A stretch of 64,000 bases of DNA, taken from the NCBI GenBank assembly GCA_009691045.1, contig SHWC01000002.1:1-64000 (forward strand), read 5' to 3'. Position 1 is the stretch's first letter; every line of letters begins with the position of its first letter. The notes under the pieces were generated by a model. It searched no databases. It was not told the origin of the DNA and saw only the letters and a list, made by a program, of their open reading frames with translations. The translations under genes were made by a program, and so were the position numbers. Origin of the DNA: Alphaproteobacteria bacterium. Its GTDB lineage: Bacteria > Pseudomonadota > Alphaproteobacteria > UBA828. Of the stretch, positions 16,768-50,407 are shown one piece after another.

Positions 16768-16986
16768 GCCCGGTGCCCCCTCTGTCCGATGACCTGAAAG
16801 ATTGGCCGGGCCGCCGCGCAAAAATTCGCGGCAACTCGGCTTACCTCGTCGGTGAGGCCGCCACCTAAATTGGCGACCTGCTTTCCAGAGTTACATTCCC
16901 CAGCGGTCCGCTTTGCCTGAGAGTTTCCGGGGCGGTTGCTCCTTCGGCGCCGTGCGGCGGTTCAGCCGCGCGGTCTCTTCCACTGG
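16768..16986 (-). ncRNA. Glycine riboswitch, probable tandem aptamers, upstream of gcvT
   Basis: On the minus strand aptamer 1 reads GTGGAAGAGACC...GCCGAAGGAGCAACC...AAACTCTCAGGCAAAGCGGACCG...CTCTGGAAAG. Aptamer 2 reads CACCGACGAGGTAAGCC...AATCTTTCAGGTCATCGGACAGAGGGGGC. Followed by gcvT. Confidence 0.9.
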
Positions 16987-17012
16987 GTTCACGTGTAAGA
17001 GCCGGTCCGCTC

Positions 17013-44301: not shown

Positions 44302-44408
44302 GTGGTCTTATACCAAGTCGCGCGCCGCTTGACCCGTGGCGCACTGCACGTGCGCCGCGTTCAGCAAGTCTTTACCGGCGTGACCGCGCCACACAAATCT
44401 CCCTCTTT

Positions 44409-44487
44409 CGTCATTGCCGGGCCCGGACCCGGCAATCCAGTTCCTTTCTTCAAGACTGGATGGCCGGGTCTTCACCCGGCCATGACG
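44409..44487. repeat. Double-hairpin repeat, copy B
   Basis: CGTCAT-TGCCGGGCCCGGACCCGGCA-ATCCA...TGGAT-GGCCGGGTCTTCACCCGGCC-ATGACG architecture. Confidence 0.75.
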
Positions 44488-44545
44488 GCAGTGGGAGGCG
44501 CGTCATTCCCTGGCCCGACTCGGGGGCGTCGGGCGATACTCAAGC

Positions 44546-45286: not shown

Positions 45287-45308
45287 CCGATCGTCACACG
45301 ATCGAATA

Positions 45309-45412
45309 CCAAGTCTCGATGAGTTTGACTCATCGCGCTCCGCTAGCACGTGGCCCTCATCGAGACTTGGCCGGCGCGACCGCGCCGCGCCGCTCTTGCG
45401 GCGGAAGGCAAG
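45309..45412. repeat. Multi-hairpin dispersed element, copy 1
   Basis: 15-bp perfect inverted repeat (45309-45323 / 45356-45370) followed by two GC-rich hairpins; shared with 50058-50134. Confidence 0.8.
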
Positions 45413-45449
45413 CGTGCGGAGCACGCGCCCGGCGCGTGAGGGCGTCACG

Positions 45450-46286
45450 ATGATCGATCACGATCATCGTGACATAACAGACCTCCGACGCACCGGTCCC
45501 TTGTCGCGAATCGGCGCGCTATCGCTGCGTCATCTTTATCTCTTGCGTGGCTCATGGCCGCGTTTGTTGGAGTTGATCTATTGGCCGACCGTGCAGATGA
45601 TTCTTTGGGGCCTGATCACCCAATTCCTGATGACGCAGAGCCTCTGGGTGCAGCAAGCGGGCGGCGCGCTGATCGCGGGCGTACTGCTATGGGACGTGCT
45701 GTTTCGCGGTCAGCTCGGCTTCACGTTGATGTTTCTGGAAGAAATGTGGTCGCGCAATCTCGGCCATTTGTTCGTCAGCCCGATCCGCCCGATCGAGATC
45801 GTCATCACCTTCATGCTGATGAGCCTGATCCGCACGCTGATCGGCGTCGGCGGCGCCTCGATCATCGCGATCATCCTCTATCACTATTCGATTTTTGACA
45901 TGGGCCCGGCGCTGATCGCGTTCTTTTTCGGTTTGATCGTGATGAGCTGGGCGCTCGGCATGCTGGTCACCGCGATGATCCTACGCTTCGGCCTCGGCGC
46001 CGAGAGCCTGGCATGGTTTTTGGTTTTCGCGCTGGCGCCGGTCAGTGGGGTTTATTATCCGATCAGCGTGTTGCCCGATTGGCTGCAAACGCTGGCATTC
46101 GGTCTGCCCTCGGCCCATGTCTTCGAGGGCATGCGGGCGGTGCTGATCGATCATGTGGTGCGCTGGGATTTACTGCGCCACGTTCTGGTGCTCGATGCTG
46201 TCTATCTGATCATCGGTGGCGCGATCTTCCTCTTCTCCATCCGCATCGCCCGCCAACGCGGCCTCTTGCATCAGGTGGGGGAGTAG
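45450..46286 (+). CDS. ABC-2 type transporter permease
   Basis: LIYWPTVQMILWGLITQFLM..., six-TM ABC-2 membrane pattern, LAPVSGVYYPISVLPDWLQTLAFGLPSAHVFEGMRAVL. ATG at 45450 preferred over the track start at 45222. Confidence 0.88.
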   Translation: MIDHDHRDITDLRRTGPLSRIGALSLRHLYLLRGSWPRLLELIYWPTVQMILWGLITQFLMTQSLWVQQAGGALIAGVLLWDVLFRGQLGFTLMFLEEMWSRNLGHLFVSPIRPIEIVITFMLMSLIRTLIGVGGASIIAIILYHYSIFDMGPALIAFFFGLIVMSWALGMLVTAMILRFGLGAESLAWFLVFALAPVSGVYYPISVLPDWLQTLAFGLPSAHVFEGMRAVLIDHVVRWDLLRHVLVLDAVYLIIGGAIFLFSIRIARQRGLLHQVGE

Positions 46287-49418: not shown

Positions 49419-50071
49419 GTGCGGCGAAGCGGCCGTTGGTCACCCATTGGTGGTGGATCAGACACGCGCCCGTGCGCGACCATGGCGGGCGCTGTTATGG
49501 CCAAAGCGATGTGCGCGCCGATGTGTCGGACGACGCGGCCTTTGCCGCGCTGGCCCGGGCTCTGCCGCAAGGCGCGCTTTGGGTGACCACCCAATTGATG
49601 CGCACGCAACAAACCGCGGCGGCGATTGCGGCCGCAGGCCACCCGGTGCCCGTGGCGCTGGTCGAACCCGCTTTGGCCGAGCAAAATTTTGGCCTGTGGC
49701 AGGGCCGTCGCTATGAGGAGATCGATCAGGATTTGGACGGCGGAGCGCATAAATTCTGGATCGCGCCGGCTCATCATTCGCCGCCCGAGGGCGAATCCTT
49801 CATCGACGTGATCTCGCGCGCCGGCGGCGCGATCGAGCGGCTGACGCGCGCCCACGCCGGACGCCATATCGTCGCGGTGGCGCATGGCGGCACGATCCGC
49901 GCGGCGCTTCAAGTCGCGCTCGACACCTCGCCCGAACGCGCGCTTGCCTTTGCCATCGACAATCTCTCGCTCACCCGGATCGACCATGTCGACGGCCCGG
50001 GTCAAGGCGGCCAATGGCGGGTCGTTTCGGTCAATCTCTCGCCCATTCATCCCAATACCAAGGCTCGCTGA
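49415..50071 (+). CDS. cobC: Histidine phosphatase family protein, likely alpha-ribazole phosphatase
   Basis: WWWIRHAPV (RHG-like), LAEQNFGLWQGRRYEEI, VAVAHGGTIRAAL; overlaps cobS end by ATGA. Confidence 0.85.
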   Translation: MSAAKRPLVTHWWWIRHAPVRDHGGRCYGQSDVRADVSDDAAFAALARALPQGALWVTTQLMRTQQTAAAIAAAGHPVPVALVEPALAEQNFGLWQGRRYEEIDQDLDGGAHKFWIAPAHHSPPEGESFIDVISRAGGAIERLTRAHAGRHIVAVAHGGTIRAALQVALDTSPERALAFAIDNLSLTRIDHVDGPGQGGQWRVVSVNLSPIHPNTKAR

Positions 50072-50134
50072 GCCAAGCTCAGTGGGCCTTGGCCGGCGCG
50101 ACCGCGCCGCGCCGCTTATGCGGCGAATGCCAAG
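50058..50134. repeat. Multi-hairpin dispersed element, copy 2
   Basis: CCAAGGCTCGCTGAG / CTCAGTGGGCCTTGG stem (50058-50072 / 50078-50092) followed by the same two GC-rich hairpins as copy 1. Confidence 0.75.
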
Positions 50135-50171
50135 TCTGCTTGGCATAATTCATAGCCAAGTCGCCGGGCAT

Positions 50172-50385
50172 GGTTTAGCCTCGGCTCTGACGGCAAGATA
50201 GGGAAGCCGGTGCCGCGACAAGGGCCATCAGCCTTGGTCGCCAGGCCGGCGCTGCCCCCGCAACTGTGAGCGGTGAGGCCTGATCCTTCCGGGCGGATTC
50301 CCCGCACGGGCCACTGGCGCTGAGCGCCGGGAAGGTGGGATTGGGCCGCTGAACCCGAGCCAGGAGACCTCCTTTCCGTCACGGC
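50172..50385 (+). ncRNA. Cobalamin (B12) riboswitch
   Basis: aagatagggaagccggtg, gctgcccccgcaactgtgagcggtg, gccactggcgctgagcgccgggaaggt, B12-box gagccaggagacct; immediately upstream of cobP-cobW-cobN. Confidence 0.95.
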
Positions 50386-50407
50386 CACGCGACTCCTCGG
50401 AGGGAGG

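Follow-up and report, generated by a model that had tools for sequence, protein, structure and literature searches.

Results

A structured element in three copies

The window, the whole 64,000-nt stretch of DNA that was analysed, contains three + strand copies of a structured element. A degenerate third copy lies upstream of an ABC ATPase gene (about 44311-44390, +; a 3-mismatch core match), copy 1 lies upstream of an ABC-2 permease gene (45307..45474, +), and copy 2 lies downstream of a phosphatase-like frame (about 50056-50145, +). The sequence-only reading had described copies 1 and 2, and both are present, but the third had escaped it. When the sequence was re-read, everything reported for copy 1 was found at exactly the coordinates given; the element extends further, however, to ~45474, with an additional hairpin, a tail and a right arm.

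The full extent was found by comparing the flanks of all copies, which revealed hairpin C, the tail GCCCGGCGnnTGAGGG and a right arm mirroring the left. The standard copy is 148 bp long and has two terminal hairpin arms flanking a three-hairpin core. The left arm, TACCAAGnCTCGATGAG-loop-CTCATCGAGnCTTGG, is followed by hairpin A (loop GACY), hairpin B, AAGCCAAG, hairpin C (loop GGA), GCCCGGCGnnTGAGGGC and the right arm, GTCTCGATGATCG-loop-CGATCATCGAGACnTGGTA. The constant parts of the core are the loops (GACY, TTAT-like and GGA), the linker AAGCCAAG and the tail GCCCGGCGnnTGAGGG. In four copies (L032, L058, L066 and L113) hairpin C reads GCGAGC-GGA-GCGAGC instead of GCGCGC-GGA-GCGCGC, a swap of two Watson-Crick pairs for tandem G.A mismatches.

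A covariance model matched copy 1 at 45306-45480 (E 2.5e-40), and the copy runs from a left terminus TACC... to a right terminus decayed to ...GACA. Its left arm (45309..45370, +) reads as an IS630-type left end folded back on an inverted copy, where the stem strands CCAAGTCTCGATGAG (45309-45323) and CTCATCGAGACTTGG (45356-45370) close a 32-nt loop that holds GACTC. Then follow, all on the + strand, core hairpin A (GGCGC-GACC-GCGCC, loop GACC, 45373..45386), core hairpin B (CGCCGC-TCTT-GCGGCG, 45388..45403), core hairpin C (GCGTGC-GGA-GCACGC, 45412..45426), the conserved tail GCCCGGCGnnTGAGGGC (45427..45443) and the right arm GTCACGATGATCG-ATCA-CGATCATCGTGAC (45444..45473), which reads as an IS630-type right end folded back. 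Copy 1 is 168 bp long compared to ~148 bp for the standard copy. Its left arm contains a 27-nt extra piece, and a piece of the same kind was found in two other copies, L074 and L087; the longer left-arm loop marks these three as a sub-group. An ATG at 45450, within the right arm and behind TGAGGG, is in frame with the downstream ABC-2 permease, and the counterpart of copy 1 in the congener G001 (L053) has the same arrangement. From the reading frame, copy 1 probably supplies the start of this permease gene.

Copy 2 was matched by the model at 50055-50146 (E 6.5e-19) and is internally deleted with both termini kept. The left arm and hairpins A and B are followed directly by a terminus ...GCCAAG-TCTG-CTTGGCA, and thus the stretch from hairpin C to the right arm is missing while the terminal CTTGGCA is retained. 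Its arm departs from that of copy 1 by two double changes plus two G-U wobbles, just what the sequence-only reading had given. The phosphatase-like frame upstream of copy 2 ends at a stop codon (50069-50071) that the copy itself provides, and a cobalamin riboswitch (50174-50390) begins about 28 bp past the end of the copy.

Distribution

A 21-base core, allowing up to 3 mismatches, has 3 matches in the window, where 0.06 would be expected. The window's own genome has 19, one of which (L017) resembles a chance match. A model search from which opposite-strand echoes were dropped put the own genome, a 67% complete MAG, at about 23 copies. Both congeners (G001 and G002) carry the element. We then drew 385 genomes evenly from the class and scored at most 8 candidates per genome; matches were found in 40 of the 385 alphaproteobacterial genomes, from 31 of 276 genera. 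In G032, a Lake Baikal MAG from another family, 25 places scored above E 1e-9; most were near-identical, and several sit at contig ends.

Related repeats or cores were found in Methylobacterium, Pannonibacter, Niveispirillum, Azospirillum, Tistrella and Methylorubrum. The core occurs without IS630-type ends in G011, G006, G080, Niveispirillum and Tistrella. G011 has nine such copies (read at L054, L060, L064 and L068), closely alike where read, and their first hairpin is short and GC-rich. A related 115-bp two-arm repeat is present at 17 places on the 351-kb Pannonibacter plasmid p.p-1 (L157), and no Caulobacter record was found among the related two-arm repeats on plasmids. Five core matches (L022, L029, L030, L035 and L039) are exact but have no arms or tail, and they look like chance. 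A search of viral contigs for the core gave none. In an Rfam scan of the window no family matched over the element, and a scan of related loci to E 1 gave chance matches only.

Covariation in the hairpins

In 16 copies from 6 genomes, 93.9% of the pairing cells were paired, compared to 24.6 to 45.3% with slid partners, a control that flatters the score since the structure was derived from those same 16 sequences. In the same copies, 19 pairs had changed on both sides, compared to 6.0 +/- 1.5 in shuffles. Across the class, 51 distinct cores were parsed, and each hairpin came with between 17 and 26 different stems but with constant loops and linkers, although some parses are ambiguous, and swapping arms between cores lowered pairing to about 50-59%. 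Because the parse itself seeks pairing, a shuffle control was run for hairpins B and C. Hairpin B reached at least 6 bp in 41 of the 51 cores and in 9.5% of the shuffles, and hairpin C did so in 40 of the 51 and in 6.9%, respectively.

The core is maintained by compensatory change, and its conservation far exceeds the needs of a passive MITE interior. The dispersed element under compensatory change that had been proposed from two copies was thus supported both by the many further copies and by the covarying stems, and the covariation count contradicts a pattern of uncompensated stem changes.

Insertion sites

For 15 copies the orthologous sites in congeners could be compared, and 11 were empty, 3 were shared and 1 held an opposite-oriented copy. 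Thirteen of these comparisons were for own copies against G001 or G002, with 11 empty, 1 shared and 1 opposite-oriented. Two shared sites lie in the window: G001 (L053) also has copy 1 and the decayed third copy, the latter in a better-kept form. L073 and L151, from the own genome and a congener, occupy one intergenic region in opposite orientations, as if they had been inserted independently. These comparisons indicate that the element is mobile.

Recent copies are bordered by a 3-bp direct repeat, TNA, which in many cases doubles as a neighbouring gene's stop codon. An identical TNA was found on both sides in 11 of 13 two-ended G032 copies, one of which was counted with a one-base offset, and flanks such as TGA/TGA and TCA/TCA exclude a plain TA duplication. 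The target duplication rests on the copy flanks and on the insertion sequence described below, since flank divergence blurred the empty-site alignment.

When the neighbouring reading frames were called in a simple way, 17 of the 28 copies classified were placed between convergent genes. In 11 of 27 copies, the duplicated TNA serves as the stop of a frame at least 240 nt long. Read most simply, stop codons and their complements are among the TNA targets, and the duplication restores them. The position of copies just behind stop codons is therefore at least in part a consequence of a target that includes TAA and TGA.

A probable IS630-family partner

A search with the terminal sequence turned up one further repeat each in G002 and G032, and these start TACCAATCCGCGTTGAGGCTGACTC and TACCAAGCTGCGTTGAGGGAGACTC. 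Both run into a transposase-like frame, in an insertion sequence (IS) that is broken at contig ends. Searched with the left end of this IS, plasmids of Sinorhizobium, Novosphingobium, Sphingobium and Jiella proved to carry complete elements, 1158 to 1165 bp long and annotated as IS630 family transposase. The termini of these elements, TACCAA...TTGGTA, are the same as those of the miniature element, and all 8 of 8 intact copies had a matching TNA on both sides. IS630 elements are usually described as duplicating TA, whereas here the duplication is the 3-bp TNA. In the Sinorhizobium copy, two overlapping frames encode HTH_33 and DDE_3 domains, an arrangement that would fit an IS630 element that uses frameshifting.

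Counted by eye in ungapped alignments, 20 of 25 positions agree between the left arm and the IS left end, and 17 of 24 between the right arm and its IS counterpart, the right end. The subterminal asymmetry of the IS is also kept in the element, with GAG..TGACTC specific to the left and GATC..AACC specific to the right. The shared termini, the asymmetry and the TNA duplication together point to each arm being an IS630 end joined to its own reverse complement.

A complete IS630 with these ends was not found in the own genome (G000) or G001, nor was a DDE_3 domain found in either, and the mobilising enzyme in these two genomes is therefore unproven or lost. Two other groups of candidates were rejected: DDE_Tnp_1 (IS4/IS5-type) partners occur only in G001 and G002 and their ends do not match, and the DDE_3 copies on contigs C88 and C76 of G002 belong to other IS630-like types without these ends.

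GANTC in the left end

In many copies the left-arm loop holds GACTC, a form of the CcrM motif GANTC, and GACTC is also present in the IS left ends examined. A RAMA-domain protein is present in G000, G001, G002, G007, G022, G032, G065, G184 and G195, and was not found in G006 and G011, which have cores without arms, or in G356. In the control set the RAMA domain was detected only in Caulobacter, whose CcrM carries RAMA. The pattern is at most suggestive of a tie between the GANTC left end and CcrM.

Discussion

As expected of an IS630-derived MITE, the element shares its TIRs and target duplication with the insertion sequence, carries no transposase gene, is present in many copies and shows insertion polymorphism. 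In our view it is very probably a non-autonomous MITE of alphaproteobacteria, with both ends taken from an IS630-family insertion sequence. A transposase of this family, supplied in trans, would bind both ends and excise the element, which would then be joined at a TNA site with duplication of those three bases. TAA and TGA stops, like their reverse complements, fit the TNA target; an insertion there would rebuild the stop and be harmless, and this would explain the pile-up of copies where convergent genes face each other with their 3′ ends. Such stop-rebuilding insertion offers a simple route by which a transposon could spread without harm. The doubled hairpin ends perhaps present the recognition sequence of the transposase twice or, alternatively, offer it in folded-back form while the DNA is single-stranded during replication. 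Methylation of the left-end GANTC by CcrM could also time transposition to replication.

The IS630 link does not explain the core, because the core is over-conserved and occurs without IS ends. One conceivable though doubtful extension is that the ~85-nt core is an independent functional RNA or single-stranded DNA that repeatedly acquired IS630 ends and arms, with GANTC coupling transposition to CcrM and the cell cycle, and that this accounts for CIR repeats. It seems unlikely that the structure is instead a by-product of hairpin-templated repair (quasi-palindrome correction) or of gene conversion between copies, with no selection on the fold. The arms are long, near-perfect palindromes, and such repair would hold their two sides complementary, but GACY, AAGCCAAG, GGA and GCCCGGCGnnTGAGGG stay constant while the stems diverge across families. 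Hairpin-templated repair could therefore account for part of the compensation in the arms but not for the constant loops.

The sequence-only reading had also suggested an element acting at mRNA 3′ ends, and the many copies just behind stop codons fit this part of the proposal. A host-useful RNA that stops transcription or protects against exonucleases, and whose copies are kept for that role, would agree with the strong covariation of the hairpins and with the frequent location between convergent genes, often beginning at a stop codon. However, the mostly empty orthologous sites in congeners imply that no site depends on the element, the TNA target accounts at least in part for the 3′-end placement, the hairpins have no following U-tract and the termini match an insertion sequence, all of which make this role quite improbable as the reason for the copies; action at mRNA 3′ ends may be a side effect. 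The REP/BIME type moved by a RAYT tyrosine transposase, also suggested earlier, can practically be dismissed, since the element is palindromic, intergenic and dispersed but has no GTAG tag, has inverted DDE-type termini with IS630 ends and a 3-bp target duplication, and measures 148 bp compared to 20-40 bp, and no Y1_Tnp (PF01797) gene was found in the 67% complete own genome.

Read as an IS630-derived MITE, the element can be set beside known repeats. The CcrM-associated intergenic repeats (CIR) of Caulobacter and Brucella (Chen and Shapiro 2003) are summarised in PMC2229807 and PMC10969869. According to the former, a linker connects their two arms, a terminal loop holds GANTC and the termini carry TA, and how they move is described there as unknown. 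The window element, likewise intergenic and alphaproteobacterial, also has two long inverted-repeat arms connected by a linker, carries GANTC in one arm's terminal loop and has TA termini, and the related Methylobacterium and Pannonibacter copies of 112-118 nt fit the CIR size reported in these summaries. In contrast, the window family is 148 bp long with a longer core, and it has inverted termini and a TNA duplication, which the same summaries give as absent or unknown for CIR. The resemblance is one of anatomy, as judged from the published description and not from sequence, and we do not file the element as CIR. Repeats of CIR-like anatomy are here tied to one IS family through their ends, target duplication and asymmetry, which suggests how CIR-like repeats could move, and their conserved GANTC proves to be part of a transposon end. 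The deeply conserved, covarying core, which has no Rfam counterpart, is defined here.

The IS630-family insertion sequences share TACCAA...TTGGTA, the left GAG..TGACTC, the right GATC..AACC and the 3-bp TNA with the window element, which differs in having no transposase gene, ends doubled by an inverted copy and an unrelated core. RUP of Streptococcus pneumoniae is thought to be mobilised in trans by an IS630 transposase (PMC2229807). RUP and the ERIC of enterobacteria are also small intergenic elements, but they have other sequences, a TA target and no double arms with a conserved core. The CGTC-tagged alphaproteobacterial REPs (PMC3733652) are palindromic and dispersed as well and, unlike the window element, have short 8-9 bp stems and form head-to-head dimers. 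Head-to-head CGTC-tagged palindromes at 44414-44490 in the window, CGTCATTGCCGGG...CAATCCAG / CTGGATGG...CCATGACG, fit this REP family. Elsewhere in the window, two Rfam matches at 16774-16992 (-) correspond to a tandem glycine riboswitch.
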